41,304 nt of DNA from Bacteroidia bacterium (GTDB lineage Bacteria > Bacteroidota > Bacteroidia > Flavobacteriales > Flavobacteriaceae), in NCBI GenBank assembly GCA_030427735.1, contig JAUIBP010000018.1, positions 1 through 41,304 on the forward strand, read 5' to 3'. This document shows positions 1 through 12,709 of this stretch, piece after piece (the stretch's first letter is position 1; each line of letters begins with the position of its first letter). Under the pieces are notes generated by a model, which saw only the letters and a list, made by a program, of their open reading frames with translations, was not told the DNA's origin and did no database searches. The position numbers and the translations under genes are program-made.

Positions 1-122
1 TGAAGCCTAAGAAACTGGTAAAGAAGATTGTCAGAAAAAGACCTAGCCCTGTTAGACGCAGACGTGGTATTTCAATGAGAAGACGACCTGGAGGTAGAGG
101 ATTCTTACGCAGAAGAAGATAA
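1..122 (+). CDS. Lys/Arg-rich mini-protein, probably 40 aa, cut by one base at the left edge
   Basis: The frame read from base 3 ends at TAA 120-122. Bases 1-2 are TG, so an A just outside the window would make an ATG start and a 40-residue protein; a longer protein cannot be excluded. More than half the residues are Lys or Arg, with clusters such as VRRRRG and a C-terminal FLRRRR, plus scattered Pro and Gly. Such composition is known from nucleic-acid-condensing peptides and viral core proteins, so binding of packaged DNA is a reasonable inference. It is followed by a terminator at 168-203 and lies upstream of the membrane-protein operon. No family could be recognised. Confidence 0.6.
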   Translation, partial: KPKKLVKKIVRKRPSPVRRRRGISMRRRPGGRGFLRRRR

Positions 123-167
123 GAACCTATGCAAGCTGTAACAGGCTCATAACAGGTAAACCATTAA

Positions 168-203
168 GCAGCCAAAGTCAGCGATAGCTCTTTGGCTGTT
201 TTT
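168..203 (+). terminator. Rho-independent terminator
   Basis: A 9-bp perfect stem (CAGCCAAAG at 169-177 with CTTTGGCTG at 190-198) has a 12-nt loop and is followed by five T (199-203). It separates the basic mini-protein gene from the operon starting at 226. It either ends an upstream transcript or attenuates read-through. I found no clear TAnnTTTG promoter between it and base 226. Confidence 0.85.
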
Positions 204-225
204 GTAAAACTCAAATTGAAATACG

Positions 226-870
226 ATGAAGAAAAGTTTAACAAGGTCGAAATACGCACAAAATCGCATTGCCTACATCGTGTATGGCAATCCGGATGGT
301 GCACGCAAATTTTTGTTTGACCAAGGGTATCACGCCCCAAAGAATATTCATGATTTAGTGAAGGCGACTAAGGAACTGGTGAAAACCCAAGGCAAAAGCA
401 TTGTTCCGCATCTGTTAACTATTCATCCGGAAAAAGATTTGATTTTGAAACTGAACCAACCACTAGAATCAACAAAGGAAGATAGTTTTTGTGGTTCATG
501 TGGAAGTAGCTCTTTTAATCCTGAATCCAACTTTTGTGGGGCTTGTGGCAACAGCAATTTTGGTGGTGATTCCAACTTGGATGTAGGCGACTACATTGAT
601 CAAATGGTGGATATGACCACTTCCCAATTGGAAAAACACTATCAGGAAGTACTGGCAGCCTCCAATAAAAAGCCGGAAGACTTATCCCTTATGGAAGAAG
701 TTCAATTGGTTTGGAATGAATTAAGACAGCGAAAACTAACTGCTGAATCCCCGAAAAAGGAAGAATCCAAAGACAAAGACCGCTTTTCAGTTTCAAAAGA
801 CGGATTGGTGATTTTGGGCTTAACACTGGTTGCCGGTGTACTCATCGGATCCTCCATAAAAAGCAACTAA
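226..870 (+). CDS. Membrane-anchored protein with zinc-ribbon-like motif
   Basis: The protein has 214 residues. Residues 14-70 form a helical-looking domain with the pattern NP...FL...GY..P...L.....EL, which recurs in the next gene. Residues 89-107 hold a CxxC-x11-CxxC motif (C89, C92, C104, C107) that looks like a zinc ribbon. A charged helical stretch (about 120-185) leads to one C-terminal membrane helix (about 193-210) and a Lys-containing tail. Start ATG 226 is the first of the operon, and the next gene starts 1 base after the stop. No known function was recognised. The context of many similar tail-anchored proteins suggests a virion-membrane or entry-complex component, which is inference. 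Confidence 0.8.
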   Translation: MKKSLTRSKYAQNRIAYIVYGNPDGARKFLFDQGYHAPKNIHDLVKATKELVKTQGKSIVPHLLTIHPEKDLILKLNQPLESTKEDSFCGSCGSSSFNPESNFCGACGNSNFGGDSNLDVGDYIDQMVDMTTSQLEKHYQEVLAASNKKPEDLSLMEEVQLVWNELRQRKLTAESPKKEESKDKDRFSVSKDGLVILGLTLVAGVLIGSSIKSN

Positions 871-871
871 G

Positions 872-1441
872 ATGATTAGAATAGTTAAAGAGGAAAATAC
901 ACAGGCACTCAATCAGCAATCTAAGGCTGCTCTATCCTTAATTGGTGTAGCGGTTGCTAAAAATCCAAAGCCTTATAAAATGCTTTTGGACAGGTACGGC
1001 ATTCAGGTTCCAACAAGCGATAAAATATCTCTAGCCAATGGATTGGTTGAAGGTTTAGCCCTTCAAAGCAAAGCATTCAACAGAGAACTTACTGAGCTAC
1101 TCAGTAATATGGTAGAATCGGAAACCGCTTACAACCCCGATGAAGATGAATACCATTATGTACAAGCCATAGCCGGAGCAATTGCCGGAATATCCGGAGC
1201 TGTGGGAAGTATAGTTGGTGGCAAGAACAAGCAGAAAATGGCAAAGGAAGAAGCTCGCAGAGAAATGCTGAATAACATGCTTGCCATGAAAGCCCAGGAA
1301 CAACAAGCTGCTGCCGAAGAACGCAAGTTGGCAGGCAAGAAAAGCCTCTACATCATCATTGGAGTGTTGGGCATACTGGGCATTATCAGCTTCTTCTATT
1401 TCCGGCAGAGAAAAAATTCAATCAATGTAAATCCTTCATAA
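872..1441 (+). CDS. Tail-anchored membrane protein with Gly/Ala segment
   Basis: The protein has 189 residues. Residues 18-75 resemble the N-terminal domain of the preceding gene (NP.PYK.LLD.YG..VP....L...L). Residues 95-114 form a Gly/Ala/Ile-rich segment (AIAGAIAGISGAVGSIVGG) that could insert into or perturb a membrane. A charged coiled-coil-like helix follows (115-152), then one strong membrane helix (about 157-176) and a basic tail. Function is unknown. The amphipathic glycine-rich stretch recalls membrane-active regions of phage entry proteins, but this is only a resemblance in composition. Confidence 0.8.
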   Translation: MIRIVKEENTQALNQQSKAALSLIGVAVAKNPKPYKMLLDRYGIQVPTSDKISLANGLVEGLALQSKAFNRELTELLSNMVESETAYNPDEDEYHYVQAIAGAIAGISGAVGSIVGGKNKQKMAKEEARREMLNNMLAMKAQEQQAAAEERKLAGKKSLYIIIGVLGILGIISFFYFRQRKNSINVNPS

Positions 1442-1451
1442 ACGATAGATC

Positions 1452-1871
1452 ATGGAATTAAGCAATTACAACTTTGGAATAACCGGTCAGCCTACTAATG
1501 AGTGGGACAACTTTTTATGCTTTGGTAGAAAATGTAAGCAACGAAAAGCCGAAAGGCATAAGGTGCGAATGGAAAAGCGAAAGTTGAAAAATGACCAACA
1601 ACGAGCAGAAACGGAAGCACTAAGAGCGGAAACAGGATTGACCAAGCAATTGGCTTCTCCTTCACCTGCACCAACTCCGCAGATGGCTCCACAAATGATG
1701 ATGCAACAAGCACCACAACCGACTGCAACGTCTCAAGCCCCTGCACCACAAGTGCAAAAGGCAGGTATGGGAAGTCCGGTAATGATTGTTATTGGGTTGC
1801 TTGTTGTTGGAGGCATAGTGTATCAATCCATGAAGAAAAAAGGAGCTGCTGCTCCAGTACAAACTGCTTAA
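1452..1871 (+). CDS. Small basic tail-anchored protein
   Basis: The protein has 139 residues. The N-terminus contains NEWDNFLCFGRKC followed by a Lys/Arg-rich helix (about 25-62). A Pro/Gln/Met-rich low-complexity linker (about 68-104) leads to a C-terminal membrane helix (about 109-126) and a KKK tail. The layout of short hydrophobic/acidic start, basic helix, flexible linker and membrane anchor is shared with the genes at 1883 and 2679. No family was recognised. The basic segment could contact DNA or lipid head groups on one face of a membrane, which is inference. Confidence 0.75.
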   Translation: MELSNYNFGITGQPTNEWDNFLCFGRKCKQRKAERHKVRMEKRKLKNDQQRAETEALRAETGLTKQLASPSPAPTPQMAPQMMMQQAPQPTATSQAPAPQVQKAGMGSPVMIVIGLLVVGGIVYQSMKKKGAAAPVQTA

Positions 1872-1882
1872 AAAATTGAAGT

Positions 1883-2431
1883 ATGATAGCTGCAAATCCA
1901 TTATATGAATTGAAGTTTTACGGAGGTCTTTTGGAAGAGGAAGACAATTTTGTTGATGGCTTAGGGAATGAATTTGAGTACGATGAATTCATTGGTAAGT
2001 GGATCAAAAAAAGAAAGGAAAAGCGAAGCCAAAATCCTAAAGTCATTGCCCGAAGAGAAAAAAGGGATGAAAAACGAATTGCCAAAGGCAGAAAGCCAAG
2101 GTTTAGTCGTCCCGCTCCAGTACGAACTTCCAAACCGGTAGTAAAGCAAATTGCTCCCGATTTACCTCCAAAGAAGGAACCAATAATTAGTGAACCACAG
2201 GTAAAAAAAGCCCTAGTGGATAGCTCTTCTAAACCGGAAGAACCAAGCACTAAACCGATGGAACAAACCGAAACAACGGCTTCGGAAAGTACTACGAATT
2301 TAACAACCGAAAGCACAGAAAATCAATCACAACAAGCTTCTATGTTGCCATTTGGCATGAGCAAGAAGACCTTGGTTTTTGTGGGTGTTGGTGTGGCTGC
2401 ATTGGTAGTAATTGGAATGATAAGAAAATAA
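1883..2431 (+). CDS. Basic tail-anchored protein with long linker
   Basis: The protein has 182 residues. An acidic N-terminus (FYGGLLEEEDNFVDGLG) is followed by EYDEFIGKWIKKRKEKR and a very basic segment to about residue 75. A Pro/Ser/Thr/Glu-rich disordered linker (about 76-155) precedes a C-terminal membrane helix (about 162-180) ending in RK. The layout matches the genes at 1452 and 2679, suggesting duplication or a shared role. Function is unknown. The long linker would let the basic part reach well away from the membrane. Confidence 0.75.
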   Translation: MIAANPLYELKFYGGLLEEEDNFVDGLGNEFEYDEFIGKWIKKRKEKRSQNPKVIARREKRDEKRIAKGRKPRFSRPAPVRTSKPVVKQIAPDLPPKKEPIISEPQVKKALVDSSSKPEEPSTKPMEQTETTASESTTNLTTESTENQSQQASMLPFGMSKKTLVFVGVGVAALVVIGMIRK

Positions 2432-2440
2432 TGAACAAGC

Positions 2441-2668
2441 ATGGACATACTCGCTCAAATAACGGAAGAAGAAGCAACAACCAACGGAAACTTACCCCAA
2501 GGTTTTCTCTTCGCATCCATCAAGAACGTGGGAACGAGCACAGCTCTTGTGAACAATGTGCCTTTGCCTCCGGGAGAAGCCAAAAGCTACCCCTTTGTCG
2601 GAAAAGGTTATCAGGCGGTAAACTATGAGCCACAAGGTTCTACGCTTAGAATATTAAGAATCCTTTAA
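2441..2668 (+). CDS. Small beta-rich protein without membrane helix
   Basis: The protein has 75 residues. It is predicted mostly beta from alternating hydrophobic residues (QGFLFASIKNVGTSTALVNN, then PLPPGEAKSYPFVGKGYQAV). It is one of the few products in the cluster with no hydrophobic helix. I chose the frame from ATG 2441, ten bases after the previous stop, because it gives globular composition. A competing frame from ATG 2431 gives Arg/Ser-rich sequence typical of a non-coding shadow. A small beta-barrel virion part such as a base or decoration protein is possible, but nothing specific was recognised. Confidence 0.65.
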   Translation: MDILAQITEEEATTNGNLPQGFLFASIKNVGTSTALVNNVPLPPGEAKSYPFVGKGYQAVNYEPQGSTLRILRIL

Positions 2669-2678
2669 ATGAATCAAG

Positions 2679-3098
2679 ATGATTGCAGGAGAAACAGAAT
2701 ATATCATACACGGTGGAGAAGATAATTACGATTACTTCTTGAAAAACCTGTTTAAGAAAGATCCCAACAAACAGGCAAAGCCAAAGCGTACTGCCGAAGA
2801 AAAAGCAGCTCGTAAAGAGCAACGCCAACAATGGTGGGGAAAACAAAAAGAAGGTTTTCAAAATGCCGGGGGTGTGGAAGGAATTACCAGTACCATCGGA
2901 AATATTGTAGGCTTTTTTAAAGACGATACCCCAACAGATTATGATGTTTCAATGGGTGGACAGCCTACTTCTGAACCGGAGAAAAAAGGCATTTCAAAAG
3001 AAGTAATGATTATCGGAGGAATTGCCGTGCTAGTGATTGCTGCATACGGCTTTTCAGTCATGCAAAAGAATAAGAAAGTACAAATCCAGTCCACTTAA
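2679..3098 (+). CDS. Basic tail-anchored protein (third of its kind)
   Basis: The protein has 139 residues. The N-terminus carries EDNYDYFLKNLFKK, then a Lys/Arg/Glu/Gln-rich helix (about 33-57). A Gly/Ile segment (NAGGVEGITSTIGNIVGFF) and a Pro/Glu linker lead to a C-terminal membrane helix (about 108-126) and a Lys-rich tail. The arrangement parallels the proteins from 1452 and 1883. The stop overlaps the next start (TAATG type). Function is unknown. Confidence 0.75.
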   Translation: MIAGETEYIIHGGEDNYDYFLKNLFKKDPNKQAKPKRTAEEKAARKEQRQQWWGKQKEGFQNAGGVEGITSTIGNIVGFFKDDTPTDYDVSMGGQPTSEPEKKGISKEVMIIGGIAVLVIAAYGFSVMQKNKKVQIQST

Positions 3099-3904
3099 TG
3101 TTAGTACCAGTACCAACATATAACAATCGTTTTGTTTTGAAGGTAGGAATCAAAGCCCTTCGACCGGTCATTGTTGCCCTTAAAGGTTATGATGCCCATA
3201 GAGCTAATTCCTATTATTTCAGAAGAAAGGTTCCATTCAAGCCTTCGGCAATAAGAGAAGGTATGAACTACAAGGAAATATCTATTTCTATGCCTTTGTC
3301 TCCTGAAACCTTGTTGGTAGAAATCTACAATAGCGAAACCGGTGAAGACAATGGCTATGTGATTGAAAAATTTGAGGTGCAGAAAATGAAAGCCTCTGAA
3401 ATATGGGCTCAACCTGCTATGCACCGATTCATTGACTTTGCACAAAACTTTGCGAAGTATAGCGGTACATACAAGCCCGGATTTTTCGATTCGCCCGATC
3501 ACGAGTTTTTGATTCAGTTGCTACCAGTCATTAAAGACCAGTTTGGCAATACCATGGTTACCCCTGCAAGAACCAACCGTCAGACCGGTAGAATACAAGT
3601 TTCCAATCAGGCATTCAAGCACTTTACTATTCCTGTAAGGATGTTTGTGCTATTGCACGAACGACAACACTTTCAGATACCAACGAGAGAAGAACGTCCG
3701 GCAGACCTTGCTGCATTAAAACTCTATTTGGATTTACAATACCCAAAAATTGAAGCGGTGTACGCTGCTACAAAAGTATTTGCTATGCACCCCGAAACCG
3801 TGGGTAGTCAGCATGTAACAAGAGCTCAGGACATTATCAATTTCATTGACAGGTATCGCAATACCCAAGAAATCATGTTAAACCACAAAGCCAAAGCCGT
3901 ATGA
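3098..3904 (+). CDS. Putative zinc metallopeptidase-like protein (HEXXH)
   Basis: The protein has 268 residues and no membrane helix or signal. Residues 187-191 read HERQH, an HEXXH zinc-binding motif, followed by EER and an AD pair (E198-D203). This fits the HEXXH...E..AD pattern of gluzincin-like peptidases, in which the downstream acid is the third ligand. The N-terminal ~110 residues look beta-rich (PVIVALKGY, EISISMPLSPETLLVEIYN), and the rest is mainly helical. Peptidase activity is inferred from the motif alone. It could act in virion maturation or as a structural protein that kept the fold. It overlaps the propeller gene by four bases. Confidence 0.65.
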   Translation: MLVPVPTYNNRFVLKVGIKALRPVIVALKGYDAHRANSYYFRRKVPFKPSAIREGMNYKEISISMPLSPETLLVEIYNSETGEDNGYVIEKFEVQKMKASEIWAQPAMHRFIDFAQNFAKYSGTYKPGFFDSPDHEFLIQLLPVIKDQFGNTMVTPARTNRQTGRIQVSNQAFKHFTIPVRMFVLLHERQHFQIPTREERPADLAALKLYLDLQYPKIEAVYAATKVFAMHPETVGSQHVTRAQDIINFIDRYRNTQEIMLNHKAKAV

Positions 3905-5637
3905 ACAGCAAGCAAAAAATAGGGTTATTGGGAGCTTTGGCGGTGGTTGGCACAGGTTATTTCCTTTTCAAAAACGATAAGGACGAAAAGCCAATAAGTA
4001 CCTCGGACAAAGAAACTAAGTTGCACGGTGATGATACCGAAAGCAACTTTATTGGTATCTCCAATGCTCGTATTCATCAGGCATTAATGGCTCAAAATCC
4101 TAACTATACTAAATCCTATAAAAAGGACTTAAAAACATGGGGAACGGTGTCAGGTGTGATGGACGTTTCCAATGACTTTGATGAAGCCAATCGCAAGAAA
4201 AAGAAATTAAAAGCCTTTGCCGAAAAAGCATTGGAAGTTCAAAAGAACTACAAGGAAAAGGCAGCTCATTTACCTGAAATATCCAAAACACAAATTACCC
4301 TTACCAATAATGGTACTTCGGTTAGAACCATCAATTTGTGGGGAGCCAATATGGGTACTTCTATCAGTAAACCATTGCCCGGAGATGTTCAAGATCATGA
4401 TGTGAATCAAGAGATACAAACAGGCGTACACCCTCAAAATGTAGGCTTCAATTCGTTCAATGGCTTACTGTATGTAGTCAATCAGTTGAGTGATAGTGTT
4501 ACTATCATGGATACATCAGGGGCAATTGCAAAAACCGTTGCTTTGGGTAGTTTTTATCCCGGATTTGTTTCTCCGGTGGATGTTGCTTTCAACCCTTCCA
4601 ATGGGGAAGCATGGGTAGTTTGTTCGGTTGAGAATACAGTTAAAATACTGGATGCTACACATAACATCATTCAAACTATTCCGGTAGGTAATCGACCAAC
4701 TTCCATTGCCTTCAATCCTGAAAATAGCTGTTTTTATGTGAGTAATTTATTGGATGATACGCTTTCCAAAATTGACAGCTCTACCTACAATGTAGTGGCA
4801 ACTTTAAATACTGGAGAAGATCCAAGAACAGTTTCGGTGTGGAATCAGCAAGGAACAGTTTGGGTAAGTAATTCAATTTCAGATTCAGTGAGTGTATTTG
4901 ATGCGGCCGATAATCTGTTAAGTGAAATAAATGCCACAGGAGATTATCCAACGGAGTTTACCGCTACTACAAGTAGCTTGTTTTTAATCGCCAAGAACAG
5001 CAATGAATTACTGGAGCTCAATCCACAAACACAAAACATCGAAAACACTTATCCGTTAGGGTTTCAACCGAGTGGAATCATCTATAATCCGGTTAATGGA
5101 TTTTTATACGTGTTGAGCAGTCAAACAGGCTTAACCTATATCTATTCCACAACTGGAACACTTTCAGAAACTTTGTCGCTCAACAATGCACCGAATATTG
5201 GTATAGCTGTCTTACCGAGCGGTGAAGTGTTTACGACCAATACAAGTGGTGGCAACCTTGCTTTTATCGGTTTTTCCGAAAGTAGTAGCGACATCACCAT
5301 AAATGAAAGTTATCCTGAAAAACGAGCGGAATTTCAGTTCAAACCTGCTTTGGTGAAGCATGCCAAGTTTGTGTTTTCAGATGAAAACCGAGCAAGTGGC
5401 TTAAAACTCATTCACCAAAGTCCAACAGGAAAACAACACGTTACCCCGATTTCATTCAACAATTACAAAAGTCCACAGAACTACCTCGATGTAGCGGAAG
5501 TAACAGCCGTTCGTGGTGATGTGATTGATGGAAAATCGACATGGGAGTTTAAGATAGCTCCCGGACAGACTATTACGATTTTGGTCTTTTACAAACAGCT
5601 TCAATTCAAATATTTAATACCAACAATTAAAATTTAA
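3901..5637 (+). CDS. Membrane-anchored beta-propeller spike-like protein
   Basis: The protein has 578 residues. It has an N-terminal membrane helix (about 6-22), a charged helical stalk (57-128), a strand-rich segment starting TQITLTNNGTSVRTINLWG (about 130-150), and a YVTN/YncE-type beta-propeller (about 174-460). The propeller repeats units such as VAFNPSNGEAWVV, IAFNPENSCFYVS and IIYNPVNGFLYVL. A C-terminal beta domain follows (about 465-578). As I remember them, some Bacteroidota phage structural proteins have similar flanking beta segments, so the propeller may be inserted into a jelly-roll-like frame. Propellers commonly bind proteins or glycans, which would fit host recognition. Both points are inference. 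The next gene is an amidase four bases downstream. Confidence 0.75.
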   Translation: MNSKQKIGLLGALAVVGTGYFLFKNDKDEKPISTSDKETKLHGDDTESNFIGISNARIHQALMAQNPNYTKSYKKDLKTWGTVSGVMDVSNDFDEANRKKKKLKAFAEKALEVQKNYKEKAAHLPEISKTQITLTNNGTSVRTINLWGANMGTSISKPLPGDVQDHDVNQEIQTGVHPQNVGFNSFNGLLYVVNQLSDSVTIMDTSGAIAKTVALGSFYPGFVSPVDVAFNPSNGEAWVVCSVENTVKILDATHNIIQTIPVGNRPTSIAFNPENSCFYVSNLLDDTLSKIDSSTYNVVATLNTGEDPRTVSVWNQQGTVWVSNSISDSVSVFDAADNLLSEINATGDYPTEFTATTSSLFLIAKNSNELLELNPQTQNIENTYPLGFQPSGIIYNPVNGFLYVLSSQTGLTYIYSTTGTLSETLSLNNAPNIGIAVLPSGEVFTTNTSGGNLAFIGFSESSSDITINESYPEKRAEFQFKPALVKHAKFVFSDENRASGLKLIHQSPTGKQHVTPISFNNYKSPQNYLDVAEVTAVRGDVIDGKSTWEFKIAPGQTITILVFYKQLQFKYLIPTIKI

Positions 5638-5641
5638 AACA

Positions 5642-6136
5642 ATGGGAAAATTAAATTATCTGGTCATTCACTGTACAGCAAGTCCTGAAGGCAAAGAGCT
5701 TACTAAGGACGATATTATTCGCATGCATACCAACCCAAAACATTTGGGAGGAAGAGGTTGGAACCGTCCGGGATATTCGGACATCGTGTACCTCGATGGA
5801 GAGCTTGTAAACATTATACCATTCAACCAAGATGACCAAGTAGATCCATGGGAAATATCCAATGGAGTGCGTGGTATCAATGGTAATTCAAGGCATGTGG
5901 TGTATGTAGGCGGTGTTGATGAAAGCGGTGAAAAGCCGAAAGACACAAGGACTAAAGAGCAAAAAGGCACTTTGGAAACCTATGTAAAGTTCATGGTATT
6001 ACGCCATCCTCACATTCAGGTTTTAGGTCATAATCAAGCTCCCGGAGCAAGCAAAGCTTGTCCAAGTTTTGATGTTCCTAAGTGGTTGGAAAGCATCGGT
6101 ATTTCAGAAGCAAACATTTACAAAGAAGAAGACTAA
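5642..6136 (+). CDS. N-acetylmuramoyl-L-alanine amidase (T7 lysozyme type)
   Basis: The protein has 164 residues, the size of phage T7 lysozyme, and belongs to the Amidase_2 family. It would cleave the amide bond between N-acetylmuramic acid and the stem peptide. Visible zinc ligands are H10 (VIHCTAS) and H130 plus C140 in LGHNQAPGASKACPSFDVP. K138 matches the catalytic Lys of the T7 enzyme, and Tyr residues near 45-50 match the expected site. There is no signal peptide or membrane helix, so it needs a holin or virion delivery to reach the wall. Its stop overlaps the next start. It is probably the lysis endolysin or a virion-borne entry enzyme. Confidence 0.92.
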   Translation: MGKLNYLVIHCTASPEGKELTKDDIIRMHTNPKHLGGRGWNRPGYSDIVYLDGELVNIIPFNQDDQVDPWEISNGVRGINGNSRHVVYVGGVDESGEKPKDTRTKEQKGTLETYVKFMVLRHPHIQVLGHNQAPGASKACPSFDVPKWLESIGISEANIYKEED

Positions 6137-6321
6137 TGAGAACGGTAATCACATTGGCAATAGGCTTTTGGCTAGGCAGACAAATCTACATTAAGTACGA
6201 CAAGCAAACGGCTCTTAAAAAAGAAGAGCAAATCAAAAATCGCTTGAAGTCCTTTTTGGAAGATAATGGCTTAACCAAAAGCGAAGTGAAAGAAACCACG
6301 GAGGAAATTATAGGCATATAA
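6136..6321 (+). CDS. Small single-helix membrane protein (61 aa)
   Basis: The start ATG 6136 overlaps the TAA of the amidase gene. Residues 3-17 are hydrophobic (VITLAIGFWLGRQIY). The remaining charged sequence forms a helix with a Lys/Glu repeat pattern and ends in Ile-Gly-Ile. An upstream in-frame start at 6082 exists but would read through the amidase catalytic end, so the short form is preferred. No family was recognised. Confidence 0.7.
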   Translation: MRTVITLAIGFWLGRQIYIKYDKQTALKKEEQIKNRLKSFLEDNGLTKSEVKETTEEIIGI

Positions 6322-6344
6322 ATCAGTCTCAAAAAGCAGAAAAC

Positions 6345-6818
6345 ATGGTAGGAGCAGTTGCAGGAGCAAAAGCCGTTGAAGGCTTATCACAAAACAAGGC
6401 TACCCCTTACATCATAGGGGGAATTATCCTCGTGGGTATTGGTATTACCTACTTTGGCGTGATACGTCCGATTCTTTGCAAAACAGGAATAGCCGACTGT
6501 AAAAGCAGCAAGAAGATTCGGGACATTATGAGCTATAAAGGCTTTGATCCGAATTATGCCCGTCCGGAAAAAATTACGCTATCCCACGATCGGGCAAAAC
6601 AACTGGCTACCCAAATTTATGATGCAGGTTCCTGGTACAATGATGATGAAGGAGCCATTTATTCAGCTTTGGAAGAAGCCGGGAGTGCCGATAATCTTTC
6701 TCTGATTTCTCGAATGTTCAGTGCCATGAAATACGGCAGTTTGGCGGAGTACATCACTTATTACCTAGATGATGCCGATGAAGTGGCACGAGTAAAAGAC
6801 ATTTTAGAAAGCTATTAA
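6345..6818 (+). CDS. Membrane-anchored helical protein with annexin-like repeat
   Basis: The protein has 157 residues. A membrane helix spans about 23-43. Residues 80-157 contain YDAGSWYNDDEGAIYSALEE, then a helix with LISRMFSAMKYGSLAEYI and a final helix ending in DILESY. The order of a D/E-rich turn, AIYSAL, ISRMF and a YG..L helix resembles one annexin-type four-helix repeat. This resemblance is by eye and implies neither calcium binding nor any eukaryotic origin. It could bind lipid or simply be a virion membrane scaffold. A 23-base gap precedes it. Confidence 0.7.
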   Translation: MVGAVAGAKAVEGLSQNKATPYIIGGIILVGIGITYFGVIRPILCKTGIADCKSSKKIRDIMSYKGFDPNYARPEKITLSHDRAKQLATQIYDAGSWYNDDEGAIYSALEEAGSADNLSLISRMFSAMKYGSLAEYITYYLDDADEVARVKDILESY

Positions 6819-6829
6819 CCTTTAGAATT

Positions 6830-7237
6830 ATGGATGCAAAGACAAAGAAATATTTAATCATAGGTGGTGTAGCCACGGTCGTTGTAGCACTTGCAGGATT
6901 TGGAGTTCACAAGTTTATCAAGAACCGAAAGAACCGTACTACAAGTGGCAAACAAAAGGAACGAGAAGAGCAAAAGCTCATTGGTAAAAAGGTGCATTAC
7001 GGTTCGGAAGGTTATGTCAATGTAAGAAGCTCTGCAAAAGTGGATAATGAGAACTGGACTTCCATGGATTTCTCACACAACCTTTTAACACAAGTAGAAA
7101 GCAATCCGGTAGGAACCATTTTAGAACGCCTCAAAGGTGAAGATGGCTATTACTGGTATAGAATAAAATTGACAAAACCTGTGGGAGGCAAAACCGAAGG
7201 TTATGTGCGTGAAGATGCAGTTGTAGTTCAATATTAA
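6830..7237 (+). CDS. Membrane-anchored SH3-like domain protein
   Basis: The protein has 135 residues. An N-terminal membrane helix (about 8-26, Gly/Val/Ala-rich) is followed by a basic stop-transfer segment (KNRKNR). A bacterial SH3-like domain spans about 60-135, with GYVNVRSS, the YYWYRIKL strand and the closing GYVRED...VQY strand. Bacterial SH3 domains often bind peptidoglycan, and the next gene carries a peptidoglycan-binding domain, so wall contact at the envelope or virion surface is likely. Confidence 0.8.
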   Translation: MDAKTKKYLIIGGVATVVVALAGFGVHKFIKNRKNRTTSGKQKEREEQKLIGKKVHYGSEGYVNVRSSAKVDNENWTSMDFSHNLLTQVESNPVGTILERLKGEDGYYWYRIKLTKPVGGKTEGYVREDAVVVQY

Positions 7238-7249
7238 ACCCCAAAAGAT

Positions 7250-7630
7250 ATGAAGAAAGAGACATTCAAATTAGATAATAAAATGCTATGGATTGGAGCT
7301 GGACTGGCAGTTACAGCAGTCGGTTTTGGCGTTTGGTATTTTCTGAAAAAACGAAAAGAGAAACAGCAATTTGCTGCAAGCATTAAAGGTACAACTACTT
7401 CGAGCAGTTCATCAGGAGTTCGCTCATTTAGTTGTATGTATTCCGATAGCAGCTTCCCATTGAAATTTGGAACCTGTGGAACCAATGTAAAAAAGCTCCA
7501 AAACTACCTAAACTCAAAAGGATCGGGATTAGATACCGATGGCAAGTTTGGTCCGAAAACAGAAGCAGCAGTTCAGAAGGTATTTGGCACTAAAACCGTG
7601 TCTCAAGAGAAATTCAAAACCATAAGCTAA
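7250..7630 (+). CDS. Membrane-anchored peptidoglycan-binding protein
   Basis: The protein has 126 residues. A membrane helix spans about 12-31 and is followed by KKRKEKQ. A Ser/Thr linker leads to a PG_binding_1 domain (about 68-120) with VKKLQNYLNSKG, the diagnostic LDTDGKFGPKTEAAVQKVFG loop-helix, and a short tail. There is no catalytic domain, so it is a wall anchor rather than an enzyme. It follows the SH3-like protein by 12 bases and belongs to the same wall-directed set. Confidence 0.85.
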   Translation: MKKETFKLDNKMLWIGAGLAVTAVGFGVWYFLKKRKEKQQFAASIKGTTTSSSSSGVRSFSCMYSDSSFPLKFGTCGTNVKKLQNYLNSKGSGLDTDGKFGPKTEAAVQKVFGTKTVSQEKFKTIS

Positions 7631-7634
7631 TACA

Positions 7635-7835
7635 ATGGAAACAGAAGAAAGAACTGGCATAAAAAACTATTTGGACAATGTGTTTAGCGATGATGGATTA
7701 AAAACCGACATCAAAATCACAATGACCGATGAGACATTGAGAAAGACAAGCTTGTATCTGGTGGGTTCAGGATTGGTGATTACGCTCATTGTTTTTGGTA
7801 TTCGAGGAATTGTAAAAAATATGGAAGCTCAGTAA
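7635..7835 (+). CDS. Small tail-anchored membrane protein (66 aa)
   Basis: The first ~35 residues are charged and helical (YLDNVFSDDGLKTDIK). One membrane helix spans about 38-58 (SLYLVGSGLVITLIVFGIRG), and a short KNMEAQ tail follows. The stop TAA overlaps the next ATG (TAATG). Size and topology match other small virion-membrane proteins in this cluster. No family was recognised. Confidence 0.75.
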   Translation: METEERTGIKNYLDNVFSDDGLKTDIKITMTDETLRKTSLYLVGSGLVITLIVFGIRGIVKNMEAQ

Positions 7836-8182
7836 TGAATAAGAAGGTCGTTGCATTATTCGCTATATCCGTTTTTGCCGGAGCCGGTTATGTGGCTTGG
7901 GCGTATTCTCCTTTGGGGAAAACGGTTATTTCAAAACGCCTATTAAGTCGTTGGGAAAAGGATTTAAAGGTGGATAAGGCAAACAAGGAACTTCTTGAAA
8001 AAGAGCTCAAAGTATTGGATTACGAACAGCACGTTTTGCTATGGAATTTAACTCGATGGCATTTAGCCAAACCTTCCGAGAGGAAAGAGAAAAAGCTCAA
8101 AAAATTGGCTTCGCAGCTAAGCGAATCGGGTATAGAAAAGCATGCAGCCCTCAAACAGATAACAGATATGCTCCAATCATAA
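7835..8182 (+). CDS. Single-helix membrane protein with charged coil
   Basis: The protein has 115 residues. The N-terminal hydrophobic helix (about 5-24) has an Ala-Gly-Ala-Gly core and resembles either an uncleaved anchor or a signal peptide. The rest is Lys/Glu/Leu-rich with heptad-like spacing (LLEKELKVLDYEQHVLL), so probably a coiled coil. It sits directly upstream of a holin-like gene. Function is unknown. A role in the lysis or entry machinery is an inference from position. Confidence 0.7.
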   Translation: MNKKVVALFAISVFAGAGYVAWAYSPLGKTVISKRLLSRWEKDLKVDKANKELLEKELKVLDYEQHVLLWNLTRWHLAKPSERKEKKLKKLASQLSESGIEKHAALKQITDMLQS

Positions 8183-8193
8183 ATGCAAGAATT

Positions 8194-8562
8194 ATGGATA
8201 CAGGAATTATTACAGAAATAGCAACACAGATTATGGGATATGTGAAAAGCCTTGATTGGGCTTACATTCTCACTTTTATCATTATTGGATATGGTATCAA
8301 CTCACAAAAGTTTACCAATCAGATCAAGCAGAAAACCAATATTTCATCCAAACGAAGATACCGGACGGCATTGGTGGGTTTAGTCTATGCAGTTATTCTG
8401 TATTTCATTCGGGGGTATGAAGCAAAGCATATTGAAGTACTGTTTCAGTCTTTCGTGTTTGCCTTTGTTTTTCACAAACTCATTTTGGATGGTTTAGTCC
8501 GCTATATCACAGGCAAAAGAACGGATTACAAAACGCTAAAGGAAAATGAAAATGCGACTTAG
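8194..8562 (+). CDS. Holin-like three-helix membrane protein
   Basis: The protein has 122 residues from ATG 8194. I preferred this start to 8041 because the longer form adds 51 residues read entirely through the previous gene, and 8194 lies 11 bases after that gene's stop. Three hydrophobic segments are visible (about 15-31, 51-67 and 80-100), separated by basic loops (KQKTNISSKRRYR), with a charged C-terminus. The size and topology fit phage holins, and the next two genes look like spanins. No holin family signature was recognised. It overlaps the next gene by 17 bases. Confidence 0.6.
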   Translation: MDTGIITEIATQIMGYVKSLDWAYILTFIIIGYGINSQKFTNQIKQKTNISSKRRYRTALVGLVYAVILYFIRGYEAKHIEVLFQSFVFAFVFHKLILDGLVRYITGKRTDYKTLKENENAT

Positions 8563-8905
8563 CTATGCAGTCTTGTTGCTTTGGCTGATGACCATTATAG
8601 GTTTTGTATGGTATTGGAGCTCGCAGGACAGGTCTGTTAATCCGAACCCCAATTACGAGCAAACCATCAAGAAACTGGAACAGCAAAACGACAGCCTCTT
8701 AGCGATCAATCAGGGTTTGCAAGAGCAAATTGCTGAACAACTGGAAAAACAAGAAGGCATTAAAGAAGAATTGAAAAAACGAAACAAGGATTTAGAACAA
8801 CTTAAATACAGGAAAATTGAAAAGATTAGGGCTATTGGTAATTATGATAACGATGAACTGTATCGGTTTTTCGCAGAATTTGAAACCGACAGTTTACACC
8901 ATTGA
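8546..8905 (+). CDS. Coiled-coil membrane protein, inner-membrane spanin-like (Rz-like)
   Basis: The protein has 119 residues. An N-terminal membrane helix (about 5-25) is followed by a long charged coiled coil (about 38-100) with clear heptads (IKKLEQQNDSLLAINQGLQE). This is the architecture of phage Rz-type inner-membrane spanins, which bridge the periplasm and fuse the two membranes at lysis. The gene follows a holin-like gene and its end overlaps a second exported or membrane protein in another frame by 89 bases, as in Rz/Rz1 pairs. The assignment rests on architecture and position only. Confidence 0.55.
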   Translation: MKMRLSYAVLLLWLMTIIGFVWYWSSQDRSVNPNPNYEQTIKKLEQQNDSLLAINQGLQEQIAEQLEKQEGIKEELKKRNKDLEQLKYRKIEKIRAIGNYDNDELYRFFAEFETDSLHH

Positions 8906-9248
8906 GAATGATACGCTATTCTGCTTTACAGTAAGTCAGGCAAAAGTAATTGCAATTGAACTGGAAGGTAAAAAGTATCAGGATAGCATTACAGTTGAGC
9001 AATCTACCCAACTGGCTTTGAAAGATTCTTTGATTCAGCAGCAGGATTCAACTATTAAGTTGCTCCAACATCAAGCAATCAACTATCAAAGCATCATTGC
9101 CAATAATCAAGAGGTGAACAACGAAGTGAACCTGCAATTGGATTTTCTAAAAACAGAAGTAAAACGACATAAACGAGATAAGATATTCCTAGGAACCGGA
9201 CTTGGAGTAAGCATTGGAATCATAGGAATCTTAGCCATACTTAATTAA
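8817..9248 (+). CDS. Exported protein overlapping the spanin-like gene (Rz1/u-spanin-like)
   Basis: The protein has 143 residues from TTG 8817. Alternative starts ATG 8844 and 8853 would shorten the hydrophobic N-terminus too much. Residues 4-19 form a signal-like core ending CIGFSQ, a typical flavobacterial signal-peptide end. A Cys at 15 lacks a good lipobox because Asn precedes it. A coiled-coil-like middle (about 55-115) and a C-terminal membrane helix (about 122-142) follow. An N-terminal export signal with a C-terminal helix recalls single-protein spanins, but lipidation is doubtful. It starts inside the preceding gene in another frame. Confidence 0.55.
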   Translation: MKRLGLLVIMITMNCIGFSQNLKPTVYTIENDTLFCFTVSQAKVIAIELEGKKYQDSITVEQSTQLALKDSLIQQQDSTIKLLQHQAINYQSIIANNQEVNNEVNLQLDFLKTEVKRHKRDKIFLGTGLGVSIGIIGILAILN

Positions 9249-9254
9249 AGAATT

Positions 9255-10595
9255 ATGAGTGCAATTGGTGGATATAGCAGCGATGTAAACCTAAACGATT
9301 TAAACTACGTGGGTGATTTTCCGGTGGAAAATAGCCTCGGTGGTTTTGGTGTTACAACCGGTGGAACAGATGACTATGTGTTAGAATTAGATCCTGCATT
9401 GAAAAATGCTTACCGACAAGGATTGAGTATTCAGGTGAAATTCAATCACGGTAATTCAGGCGTTTCAACAATCAATATCAATGGTAAAGGAGCGGTTCCA
9501 ATAATGAAAGCCGTGAACGGTGTATTGGTTGATCTATCAGCCGATGATTTGGGAACCATCAACCATTATTTATTGCTCTTTGATGGTACTTGCTTTCAAA
9601 TAGTAGCCGGTCTAAAATCGAGTATTGAAACGGCATCGGAAACCGTTGAAGGAAAAGCGAGAGTTGCCACGATTGAAGAAGTCAATGAAGGTACAAGTAA
9701 TTCAACTTTTGTAACCCCTCAAAAGCTTGCAAGCTATGTGGCAGATAAGGTAACAGGACTTTGGGAAAACAAAGGAACTATCGACTGTTCAACGAATCCT
9801 AATTATCCGGCAGCATTAGCCGGAGATGCTTATACGGTAAGTACAGGAGGTAAAATTGGTGGAGCTGCCGGAGAAGATGTTCAGGAAATGGATGTCATTG
9901 TTTGTTTGGTGGATAATGCCGGTGGTGATCAGGCAAGCGTTGGAGCTTCATGGAATGTGATTCAAAGCAATGTTTCACAAGCAACTGAAACTATTGCAGG
10001 GATAATCAAAGTAGCTTCACAAGCCTTGGTGAATGGTGGAACTGATGATTTGAGTGCCATTACACCTTTAAAGTTAAAAACACTTTTAGATTCAAGACTG
10101 GCGACTGAAACACTTATTGGCTTGATTGAAATTGCTACGCAAGCAGAGACAGATTTAGGAGCCGATAACCAAAGAGCCATTACGCCATTGAGATTGAAAA
10201 CTCGATTGGATAATTACCTCAATCGAGAATCACTACTCACCATCACGGCTGCACAGATTGGCACAACCATGTATCATACACCGGGAAGAAATCGCTATTC
10301 GGTAGTAAATGGAAATATGATACTCATCAAAGATATTCGATTAAAACGTACAGGTGGAATCGGTTCAGTAAGTGGTTGGATGATGAATTTCCCGAAGCCT
10401 AATAACAGTCCAACTGGAGCCTTATCGGGAACATTGACTAGCAATAAAGGTGAAACTTTCTTTTACAACATTGACAGCAATGGAAGAGTGTCCATAAGCG
10501 GAACCTTTATAGATCCCAACGATGAATTGCTATTCAATATTCATCCTTATATCGCCAAATATCCAATCGAATACGATAATACTTCACCTGCTTAA
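9255..10595 (+). CDS. Phage fibre / receptor-binding protein
   Basis: The protein has 446 residues. The N-terminal part (about 1-130) looks beta-rich. Three phage tail-fibre repeats are visible: one starting ASETVEGKARVAT (about 128-165) and two starting ATETIAG and ATETLIG (about 243-320), with ATQAE and ITPLKLKT motifs. A beta domain (WENKGTID...ASWNVIQSN) lies between the first repeat and the other two. The C-terminal ~110 residues form another beta-rich segment that could be the tip. The repeats occur in fibres of tailed phages and as spike modules elsewhere, so they do not prove a tail. It probably binds the host surface. Confidence 0.85.
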   Translation: MSAIGGYSSDVNLNDLNYVGDFPVENSLGGFGVTTGGTDDYVLELDPALKNAYRQGLSIQVKFNHGNSGVSTININGKGAVPIMKAVNGVLVDLSADDLGTINHYLLLFDGTCFQIVAGLKSSIETASETVEGKARVATIEEVNEGTSNSTFVTPQKLASYVADKVTGLWENKGTIDCSTNPNYPAALAGDAYTVSTGGKIGGAAGEDVQEMDVIVCLVDNAGGDQASVGASWNVIQSNVSQATETIAGIIKVASQALVNGGTDDLSAITPLKLKTLLDSRLATETLIGLIEIATQAETDLGADNQRAITPLRLKTRLDNYLNRESLLTITAAQIGTTMYHTPGRNRYSVVNGNMILIKDIRLKRTGGIGSVSGWMMNFPKPNNSPTGALSGTLTSNKGETFFYNIDSNGRVSISGTFIDPNDELLFNIHPYIAKYPIEYDNTSPA

Positions 10596-10598
10596 ACA

Positions 10599-10937
10599 AT
10601 GACTATGGAACTATGGAAAATAATAACGCTGATTTTGGGGGCTACTGGATTTTGGAAGCTGCTTGAAATCCTTGTTCGCCTGCGTACAGATAAAAAAGTG
10701 AAGTTGGCAGAAGCTATCAACCTACATGCACAGGCGGAGAATCAGATTGTTGCAAATTGGATACAGTGGTCGCAAATGTTAGAAAAGAGAATTAAAGAAT
10801 CGGAGGAACATACAGAAGCATTACAGAAAGTAATAGAGAACCAACGCAAACGTATCCAAGATTTGGAGAAAAAAGTGGTTCACATGGAGAAACAGAATAA
10901 GGAATTAATTAACGAGCTAAAACGCATAAAACAGTAA
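10599..10937 (+). CDS. Membrane-anchored coiled-coil protein
   Basis: The protein has 112 residues from ATG 10599; ATG 10605 is also possible. One membrane helix spans about 5-22 (WKIITLILGATGFWKLLEIL). A long charged coiled coil (about 62-112) follows, containing KVIENQRKRIQDLEKKV. The layout of anchor plus coil recalls holin-accessory or spanin-like proteins. It follows the fibre gene and precedes a Cys-rich mini-gene. No family was recognised. Confidence 0.75.
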   Translation: MTMELWKIITLILGATGFWKLLEILVRLRTDKKVKLAEAINLHAQAENQIVANWIQWSQMLEKRIKESEEHTEALQKVIENQRKRIQDLEKKVVHMEKQNKELINELKRIKQ

Positions 10938-10940
10938 GTC

Positions 10941-11090
10941 ATGAAAGAGAATAAAACAATGAACATCTTGTTTGCAACATTTATGGTCTTGTCCATTGCA
11001 AACATTTCAATCAATCTATTAAGAATGAAAAAGAGCTGCAAATGCCAAAGCGGTGAAAGCGGTGGTTGTAGTTGTCAAAAACAAGCATAA
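10941..11090 (+). CDS. Cys-rich single-helix mini-protein (49 aa)
   Basis: The open frame runs from ATG 10941 to TAA 11088-11090, fitting exactly between its neighbours with 3-base gaps on both sides, which supports translation. Residues 8-27 are hydrophobic (NILFATFMVLSIANISINLL). The tail has four Cys in a Gly/Ser-rich stretch (CKCQSGESGGCSC), which could bind metal or form disulfides. Function is unknown. Confidence 0.6.
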   Translation: MKENKTMNILFATFMVLSIANISINLLRMKKSCKCQSGESGGCSCQKQA

Positions 11091-11093
11091 CAA

Positions 11094-11630
11094 ATGGGAG
11101 TTCAGGTAGATAAAAAGGTAGTCTTTATGGGTGTTGGTATCCTTGTGGGTGTCATCGGTATTGCTATTGCAAGTCGTTGGCTTTACAAGAAACTGGATAT
11201 ACAAACCAAGTTAAAGCTCCGTCAACTTCGACCTGAAGTAAGAAAGAAGGTCGAGAAGTTTCTTATCAAAGCTCAAAAGGCAGGCATTCAACTTAAAGTC
11301 ACCAGTGCTTACCGTGATTGTGAAGAGCAAAACAAACTCTATGCACAAGGGCGAACAGCACCGGGAGGAATTGTTACCAATGCCAAATGCGGACAGTCGG
11401 ATCACAATGTAGGAGTAGCGGTGGATATTGTTCCAATTGTGGATGGGCGTGCCAATTACAAAGTGCCTGAATCGGTATGGAATACCATTGGAGCTATTGG
11501 TGAAAGTGTTGGTCTTTCCTGGGGAGGTCGATGGACTTCTTTTAAAGACCGTCCACATTTTTACGACCGAGGTGGTAAATCCATTGCACAGCTTTGGACT
11601 GAACAACAAAACTTAGCAAACCTAGCATAA
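11094..11630 (+). CDS. Membrane-anchored M15 D-Ala-D-Ala / L-Ala-D-Glu peptidase
   Basis: The protein has 178 residues. A membrane helix spans about 9-28. An M15-family zinc peptidase domain (about 65-160) follows, with TSAYRDCEEQNKLYAQGR, the SDHNVGVAVD zinc motif (H104 and D111) and the WGG.W.SF.D.PHF end with H155. These match VanY and phage endolysins of subfamily M15C, which cut peptidoglycan stem peptides. The anchor is unusual for a free endolysin and suggests a virion- or membrane-tethered enzyme. Its stop overlaps the next start. Confidence 0.9.
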   Translation: MGVQVDKKVVFMGVGILVGVIGIAIASRWLYKKLDIQTKLKLRQLRPEVRKKVEKFLIKAQKAGIQLKVTSAYRDCEEQNKLYAQGRTAPGGIVTNAKCGQSDHNVGVAVDIVPIVDGRANYKVPESVWNTIGAIGESVGLSWGGRWTSFKDRPHFYDRGGKSIAQLWTEQQNLANLA

Positions 11631-12064
11631 TGAGCGAAGCAACAAGAGTACATAAAAACGCCTATCGAAATGGCAACGCCTCTTCCATGTTGGATTATTT
11701 GGAAGAGCTAATACTGATTCAAAGCGGTGAAAACGGAAGGTTCACTATCCCTGAAACCGAACAAGGATATGAAGACTTGTCAGTTACCGATACGGAAGTG
11801 GCTCAATTGACTATTCCTGAAAATGCTATTTCAGCAACCATATCCATTGAAGCAGATGCAAGTGTAACGGATAAAACAAGAGTGATTCGTTTCAAGGAAA
11901 ATGGCAGCGATCCAACAGCTAATTCCGGTATTGCTTTAGGTGATAATGATCTTTACGAAATTACCGGTCGATGGAATTTAGAAAGCTTTCGAGTGATCGG
12001 AATTGAGGCAGGGAAAAGCCATGTTTTAAGAGTACAATACTATCAATCACCACAGAACGCATGA
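11630..12064 (+). CDS. Beta-sandwich-like structural protein
   Basis: The protein has 144 residues, with no signal or membrane helix. Alternating strands are visible (VAQLTIPENAISATISIEAD, TRVIRFKENG, HVLRVQYYQ) after a short helical N-terminus. It looks like a small beta-sandwich suited to a virion surface or fibre-associated role. The start ATG overlaps the peptidase stop, and its own stop overlaps the next ATG (ATGA). No family was recognised. Confidence 0.65.
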   Translation: MSEATRVHKNAYRNGNASSMLDYLEELILIQSGENGRFTIPETEQGYEDLSVTDTEVAQLTIPENAISATISIEADASVTDKTRVIRFKENGSDPTANSGIALGDNDLYEITGRWNLESFRVIGIEAGKSHVLRVQYYQSPQNA

Positions 12065-12543
12065 GGTATATCAATAAACAACGCTTTGTAAAGGCTAGTC
12101 AAACCATAGTTGAGCAAACTGGCGGTACAGATCCGGGAGGTGGAACTGGAGGTGAAGTAGGCATTTCAAAAATTGAGATGCTTAACACTTCATCCATCAG
12201 ATTAGAAGCAGGACATATTGTAAGGTTAAATGAAAATCAAGAAAATGCAGTAGAAGCATTCCCTCAATACAATCCGTTCCAACCGCATCCTTTTGGTATA
12301 GTATTGACACCGGGAAATCCTAATGAATTAGTTCAGGTTATGTATGGAGGTATTACGGATGTTCAAATAGATATTGCACAAGTAAATATTGGCGACTACT
12401 TATACAATTCATCCACTCCAGGTTTATTAACACCTTCGGACGGTGGGTTCATTGGAGCCATAGGTCGAGCTTTAAGTGCTAAACCAAATGGTACTTCAGG
12501 AGCCGTTCGTGCCATCATTGGTTACTTACCACATTTAGGGTAA
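12061..12543 (+). CDS. Capsid-cement / DUF2190-like protein
   Basis: The protein has 160 residues. The N-terminus has a Gly-rich linker (TGGTDPGGGTGGEVG). The main domain contains LEAGHIVRLNENQ, PFGIVLTPG, QVNIGDYLYNSS and GFIGAIGRALSA, the order seen in DUF2190-type head decoration or cement proteins. In phages these stabilise the capsid surface. The match is by pattern and is moderate. It is the last gene of the cluster and is followed by two hairpins, one a strong terminator. Confidence 0.55.
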   Translation: MRYINKQRFVKASQTIVEQTGGTDPGGGTGGEVGISKIEMLNTSSIRLEAGHIVRLNENQENAVEAFPQYNPFQPHPFGIVLTPGNPNELVQVMYGGITDVQIDIAQVNIGDYLYNSSTPGLLTPSDGGFIGAIGRALSAKPNGTSGAVRAIIGYLPHLG

Positions 12544-12551
12544 ATCATAAA

Positions 12552-12574
12552 TCCCTGCGATTAATTCGCAGAGA
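12552..12574. repeat. Imperfect palindrome at the right end of the phage-like cluster
   Basis: Nine-base arms (12552-12560 and 12566-12574) with one mismatch flank a TTAAT spacer, 9 bases after the last phage-like stop. There is no T tract, so it is a poor terminator. It could be mRNA-stabilising structure or part of an attachment or recombination site. The left end is not in the window, so no matching repeat can be checked. Confidence 0.4.
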
Positions 12575-12677
12575 CTTATTGTCATCTTATATAGCCACTC
12601 CAACAAGCTTTGCATGGTGGAGAATTATGTCCACATCCTGCATAATAAAGTTCGATATTTGTCGGTTTCCTTGTACT

Positions 12678-12709
12678 AAAGCCTTTATCGTAAGATAGAG
12701 GCTTTTTTT
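12678..12709 (+). terminator. Strong rho-independent terminator
   Basis: A 12-bp stem with one G-T wobble (12678-12689 with 12694-12705) is closed by a GTAA loop and followed by T through 12709. It would end transcription of the phage-like cluster about 95 bases before the glucokinase gene. Confidence 0.88.

Follow-up and report, generated by a model that had tools for sequence, protein, structure and literature searches.

Serial single-helix proteins in a flavobacterial provirus point to a probable tailless, membrane-containing virus

Several tailless phages contain a membrane and differ in their capsid proteins. The capsid protein of PRD1 (Tectiviridae) is a double jelly-roll. The packaging ATPase of PM2 (Corticoviridae) is P9, which the database record AF155037 labels a structural protein. 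SH1, a haloarchaeal member of the class of Thermus phage P23-77, has a genome of about 31 kb. This class (Helvetiavirae/Singelaviria) comprises tailless membrane-containing viruses with single jelly-roll capsid proteins (PMC8328091, PMC5332951), the Flavobacterium phage FLiP (Finnlakeviridae) is an icosahedral virus of a flavobacterium with an internal membrane (PMC7654751), and PM2-like prophages are known (PMC5894146). Here we examined 41,304 nucleotides from a member of the Flavobacteriaceae (the window; contig C1, bases 1-41304, beginning at the contig end). An earlier note on this DNA, made from the letters alone, had read positions 226-11630 as part of a membrane-containing tailless phage. 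We find that window 1-12680 is probably the virion and lysis arm of a temperate provirus of about 40 kb, which would belong to a tailless membrane-containing DNA virus. Host genes occupy the window from about 12805 onward.

The arm continues on contig C9 of the same genome, which carries the left half of the element. The assembly gap between C9 and C1 corresponds to most of a gene for a protein of 299 amino acids. In the complete genome of another genus (G071) the whole element region is uninterrupted. The gene order there is a serine recombinase, regulators, a protein weakly resembling an initiator, two large proteins of helicase/methylase type, an ATPase, cargo, the 299-aa protein and then the genes of the window, among them one whose product is 94% identical to the 3098-3904 protein. 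This protein had a match in 8 of 298 genomes of the family, its own genome included. A profile of the 299-aa protein identified 39 loci in 32 genomes, as counted from record titles; several of these loci are cut by contig ends.

Membrane helices were called with a 19-residue Kyte-Doolittle window at a mean of ≥1.6, or ≥1.3 as a looser threshold. Of the 22 genes that lie entirely within 226-11630, 15 encode a helix under the strict threshold, in agreement with the count of at least 14 in about 23 products made earlier. The looser threshold gave 18 of 22; it added the genes at 3098 (1.32), 3901 (1.38) and 7250 (1.59). The 3098 segment lies within a predicted beta domain and is probably not a real helix. 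For the whole arm up to 12543 the count was 15/24 genes, and 500 composition shuffles yielded 3.2 on average and never more than 8. By the same method helices were found in 7/21 host genes of the window (p 0.07, not significant), 8/65 genes of the tailed Cellulophaga phage phi17:1 (p 6e-6), 14/30 of PRD1 (p 0.28), 6/16 of FLiP (p 0.20) and 6/21 of PM2 (p 0.036), which is thus less rich than the arm. The helix excess is clear over the tailed phage and a mere trend over the host genes.

The placement of the anchors followed the described pattern in large part. Among the six genes of 226-3098, all but 2441, which encodes no helix, have it at the C-terminus. In 3901-11630 ten genes bear a helix; seven have it at the N-terminus, and those at 7635, 8041 and 8817 deviate. 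Lysine or arginine, said to follow the helix directly, was present within six residues after the called segment in 12/15 cases and not in the other three. Among the related loci, 31 of 39 extend for 9 kb or more downstream; in these, 555 open reading frames (ORFs) with an ATG start follow the 299-aa gene, and 347 of them encode a helix, 327 exactly one. From these serial anchors we infer an internal membrane of the virus. The genes of the arm are as follows.

3-122, + strand: 3' end of the capsid-candidate gene, last 39 codons (3-119), Arg-rich tail and stop; frame read, matches residues 261-281 of the G071 protein; tail of the L040 protein reads identically
226-870, + strand: Cys-rich protein (zinc-ribbon-like, below Pfam cut-off) with C-terminal helix; matched at 39/39 related loci
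872-1441, + strand: protein with C-terminal anchor and a weaker second helix further inside (helix scan, locus comparison)
1452-1871, + strand: basic protein with C-terminal anchor (helix scan, locus comparison)
1883-2431, + strand: protein with C-terminal anchor (helix scan, locus comparison)
2441-2668, + strand: 75-aa protein without helix, candidate minor capsid or vertex part; matched at 30/39 loci
2679-3098, + strand: protein with C-terminal anchor (helix scan, locus comparison)
3098-3904, + strand: beta domain (residues 2-96) and domain with invariant HExxH, putative zincin-like metallopeptidase (alignment; AlphaFold2 pLDDT 78); 35/39 loci
3901-5637, + strand: beta-propeller protein (Lactonase and YNCE of Pfam, both above cut-off), N-terminal helix weak; candidate for spike or receptor binding; 33/39 loci
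5642-6136, + strand: N-acetylmuramoyl-L-alanine amidase (PF01510, phrog_822)
6082-6321, + strand: small protein with weakly hydrophobic N-terminal segment, start probably at 6133; 26/39 loci
6345-6818, + strand: protein with N-terminal anchor (helix scan)
6830-7237, + strand: N-terminal anchor and SH3-like domain, below cut-off (domain and helix scans)
7250-7630, + strand: N-terminal anchor (score 1.59) and peptidoglycan-binding domain (PF01471)
7635-7835, + strand: 66-aa protein with C-terminal helix (helix scan)
7835-8182, + strand: protein with N-terminal anchor (helix scan)
8041-8562, + strand: membrane protein, holin candidate by position; 31/39 loci
8546-8905, + strand: Rz-like inner spanin (phrog_214, phrog_739)
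8817-9248, + strand: overlapping partner gene of 8546, possible outer spanin (overlap, helix scan, locus comparison)
9255-10595, + strand: fibre protein with tail-fibre-type repeats, last ~120 residues conserved in relatives (phrog_910)
10599-10937, + strand: N-terminal anchor and coiled coil (domain and helix scans)
10941-11090, + strand: 49-aa Cys-rich anchored peptide (helix scan)
11094-11630, + strand: VanY/M15 peptidase, endolysin-type, with N-terminal anchor (domain and helix scans)
11630-12064, + strand: accessory protein without helix (helix scan, locus comparison)
12061-12543, + strand: accessory protein without helix (helix scan, G071 comparison)
12672-12680, + strand: right attachment core TGTACTAAA with terminator-like stem, right provirus edge; stem matches the one behind the tRNA-Leu of a congener

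The putative metallopeptidase may act in maturation or entry. The wall-active domains on N-terminal anchors (7250, 11094 and the SH3-like 6830) would fit entry enzymes of a virion membrane better than free endolysins. Because the relatives compared keep just the last ~120 residues of the fibre protein, its repeats look like an exchangeable host-binding part. The 12061-12543 gene starts like its G071 counterpart and differs after the first ~31 residues, as if the remainder had been exchanged.

Upstream of the 299-aa gene an ATPase of the FtsK/HerA/Zot class is encoded. PF05707 (Zot) was its sole Pfam family above cut-off, Pox_A32 was below. With hhalign, PM2 P9 was the best of three viral ATPases compared (88.8% over 132 columns); the PRD1 ATPase matched weakly (28% over 31 columns) and that of P23-77 gave 8% over 122 columns. 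Controls were a terminase (0.2%), MutS (0.25%) and a helicase (40% on 14 Walker-A columns). The profiles of the ATPase and of the 3098-3904 peptidase had no match among PDB sequences, and the ATPase profile, scanned against 395 genomes of the phylum, matched in its own genome only. Judged by sequence, the ATPase is placed in the FtsK/HerA superfamily, at the level of superfamily only, and we infer a role in genome packaging. A candidate for the FtsK/HerA-type packaging ATPase that had been predicted is present.

The 299-aa protein is highly conserved (alignment of 31 rows, mean column identity 70%). An AlphaFold2 model of low confidence has an all-beta core of ~140 residues forming one barrel (residues 79-215). 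A second look at the Foldseek list with VIA-align (50 rows) was rich in jelly-roll-type proteins, i.e. capsids of satellite viruses, comoviruses and nanoviruses and one stretch of a PR772 chain; the PM2, FLiP and P23-77 capsids were unnamed among these 50 rows, which excludes nothing. Using hhalign, no match was obtained with the capsid proteins of FLiP and PM2 or with VP16 and VP17 of P23-77, and the comparison with the 75-aa protein of the element gave no result. The profile did not match PDB sequences. It had no match in the 395 phylum genomes either, a scan without positive control because the element's own capsid gene lies mostly in the gap. A second capsid protein was not found, leaving one candidate. 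We propose that the 299-aa protein is the capsid protein. The low-confidence model points to one barrel and there is no sequence link to the FLiP, PM2 and P23-77 capsids; the double jelly-roll capsid expected in the earlier note therefore finds no support. The earlier reading as membrane-containing tailless phage is thus supported in part. In favour of a tailless membrane-containing virus are the provirus boundaries, the ATPase, the conserved capsid candidate, the common gene order, the serial anchors, the lysis genes and the lack of recognised portal, HK97, connector and tape-measure proteins.

Next, the boundaries. The element's serine recombinase gene (L036:6011-7633) overlaps tRNA-Leu(UAA). 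The sequence TGTACTAAA is present at both element ends, on the left at L036:7576-7584 and on the right at window 12672-12680. This short core was recognised because the window was compared with the congener G014, where the stretch directly behind tRNA-Leu shares 34/36 bases with window 12673-12708. Outside this stretch the window had no match in the 19 kb fetched from G014, and for the first right-flank gene that genome offers just a 33%-identical, distant match; both argue against a full empty site in G014. A repeat of the tRNA 3' end was sought at the right end and not found. From the two cores the element comprises 27,584 + 12,680 bases plus the gap, i.e. 40.3 kb and the assembly gap. With an integrase beside the tRNA and the same core at either end, the element is a provirus at the tRNA-Leu gene. 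At the place that the provirus occupies here, G014 has tRNA-Leu(taa) in tandem, and behind every copy stands a separate terminator-like stem (L084:17378-17641).

The G071 recombinase overlaps tRNA-Arg, unlike the tRNA-Leu used here, and no attachment site was resolved in G071. In their four longest blocks (1.5-11.4 kb) the DNA of the two elements is 91-93% identical; two shorter blocks, at window 3-1846, reach 77-78%. The MutS proteins of the two hosts are 85% identical. Element DNA at 91-93% next to host MutS at 85%, the latter a protein value, suggests a recent transfer between genera. The alignment with G071 is broken by regulator, SRPBCC-like and DoxX-like genes inside the element (L035:18643-19864; ORFs read by eye). 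A glycosyltransferase gene in the replication arm (L036:488-1648; L025:10028-11188) possibly serves surface or DNA modification.

Is this a tailed phage or the remnant of one, with head and tail genes too divergent for recognition? We scanned 42 non-cargo proteins with PHROGs, 24 of them from the window arm and 18 from the left arm (G071 and C9). None was recognised as a portal, HK97 capsid, connector or tape measure. The earlier note had named terminase, portal and tape-measure genes upstream as evidence that would tell against it; in G071 and C9 none was recognised, barring a partial match of the ATPase to phrog_2666, labelled terminase large subunit. Tail genes, which it found absent over 12 kb, were not recognised among all 42 proteins, with the exception of the fibre repeats and a few weak labels. 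These exceptions speak for a tailed phage and weigh against a tailless one: the terminase label, the strong match of the 9255-10595 protein to tail-fibre families, and weak virion-protein labels on 872, 1883, 6830 and 8546 (E 0.008 to 0.06). However, the ATPase aligned to PM2 P9 and not to the single tailed-phage terminase compared, the fibre retains just its C-terminal part in the relatives compared, and the helix fraction differs widely from the phi17:1 value. We consider a tailed phage very unlikely.

A filamentous-virus-like element is also very unlikely. There, the ATPase would be a Zot/pI assembly motor and the single-helix proteins would be coat or assembly proteins extruded through the envelope, consistent with Zot as the only Pfam family above cut-off and with the numerous small single-helix proteins. 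Yet Zot/pI motors carry a membrane helix, which was seen in none of the 19 ATPase rows. Amidase, endolysin-type and spanin genes, a size of about 40 kb and a conserved 299-aa protein with a modelled all-beta core do not fit either. Finally, a non-viral integrative element, such as a defence island, satellite or envelope secretion device, might carry lysis-like genes and make no virion of its own. Defence-type cargo, the lack of relatives in the viral collections searched and the indirect capsid assignment would agree with this. On the other hand, genes for spanins, an amidase and an endolysin-type enzyme occur in one common order with those for a packaging-type ATPase and a jelly-roll-like protein, and the families returned for the scanned non-cargo proteins include none readable as conjugation or secretion machinery. 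We regard a non-viral element as unlikely.

The loci related to the proposed tailless virus all have Bacteroidia titles; most name Flavobacteriaceae genera or Flavobacteriales, one names Vicingaceae and one just 'Bacteroidia bacterium'. Among cultured flavobacteria they occur in Kordia, Aquimarina and Dokdonia, for instance in the strains Kordia algicida OT-1, Aquimarina agarilytica ZC1 and Dokdonia pacifica DSM 25597. The gene order is common to related loci in tens of genomes and the ATPase was matched at 29/39 loci. None of 50,697 phage records had a tblastn match to the capsid candidate, the ATPase or the peptidase. Limited IMG/VR scans revealed no relative of the hallmark proteins; because they depend on exact short peptide patterns, this is weak evidence of absence. 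The lineage looks like one outside the phage collections searched.

Between ATPase and capsid gene lies a cargo slot. The distance between both genes is ~0.4 to 8.2 kb in 29 loci (ATPase ends estimated) and 15.5 kb in G071. Ten cargo proteins were scanned, 8 of 63 ORFs from seven loci and two of the own genome. By PADLOC, 6/10 matched defence components or candidates (the own PDC-M16A and PDC-M16B, a type III restriction enzyme and methylase, AbiEii and a PifA-like protein). The others were one Fic-type match and three without PADLOC match, of which Pfam identified one as Mrr-like and one as HEPN. The own cargo (L035:78-5634) consists of two genes (990 and 864 aa) at the extreme end of C9 beside the ATPase module, and also matches Pfam TOTE conflict-system domains. 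In G071 the cargo reads from its ORFs as type I restriction-like genes. Kordia algicida OT-1 has three related loci (L044, L045, L046), at least two with different cargo (HEPN-type, type III restriction), suggesting polylysogeny in which the defence loads differ.

How might such a virus operate? Once the recombinase has integrated the element, the steps are inferential. A repressor-like gene (phrog_8) would maintain lysogeny and, on induction, the left arm would replicate the genome. The 299-aa protein may form a jelly-roll shell with its Arg-rich C-terminal tail facing lipid or DNA, and the small C-terminally anchored proteins may pin this shell to an inner membrane. The ATPase would package the genome. 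Propeller and fibre proteins could bind the host, anchored peptidoglycan-binding, SH3-like and M15 domains could open the wall at entry, and amidase, holin candidate and spanins could release progeny. The exchangeable cargo between ATPase and capsid gene, defence systems included, would protect the lysogen. If particles are made, cultured flavobacteria carry a lineage of large-genome membrane viruses unrecognised in the collections searched. If true, this bears on the origin of single- and double-jelly-roll viruses, on the size limit of tailless membrane phages and on the spread of defence systems by prophages.

No description of the lineage was recognised in the literature searched, whose coverage leaves out most subscription papers and includes the accessible portions of PMC5894146, PMC7761591, PMC12714852 and PMC8328091. 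The fF4 prophage of Flavobacterium columnare was dropped as a relative; it is a Mu-like myovirus (PMC7761591). PM2 resembles the element in its related ATPase and in gene order, with the P9 gene ahead of the capsid gene and a series of small genes for structural proteins after it. It differs in size (10.1 kb versus ~40 kb), in a double-jelly-roll capsid without sequence match and in a lower helix fraction. P23-77 also has an ATPase, then capsid genes, then small structural genes; yet VP16 and VP17 do not match in sequence, the ATPase match is 8%, there are two capsid proteins versus one candidate, and the genome is 17 kb. FLiP has a similar helix fraction (6/16); in contrast, there is no capsid match, and its 9.2-kb ssDNA genome is without packaging ATPase (PMC5894146). 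PRD1 likewise encodes a packaging ATPase, enzymes acting on peptidoglycan and numerous small membrane proteins, whereas its ATPase match is weak and its genome has 14.9 kb. In its working the element, known here from its genes, may thus be likened to PM2, PRD1 and P23-77. It cannot be filed with them because capsid homology is not evident and the reading as one barrel leads away from the double-jelly-roll class. Tentatively, and with rather less confidence than in a tailless membrane virus as such, we consider a separate tailless membrane virus lineage of high rank. It would combine a single-jelly-roll capsid protein with long acidic head and basic tail, a PM2-like ATPase, an HExxH structural protein, a temperate genome of ~40 kb, more than twice those of PRD1, PM2, FLiP and P23-77, and a slot for defence cargo within the capsid operon.

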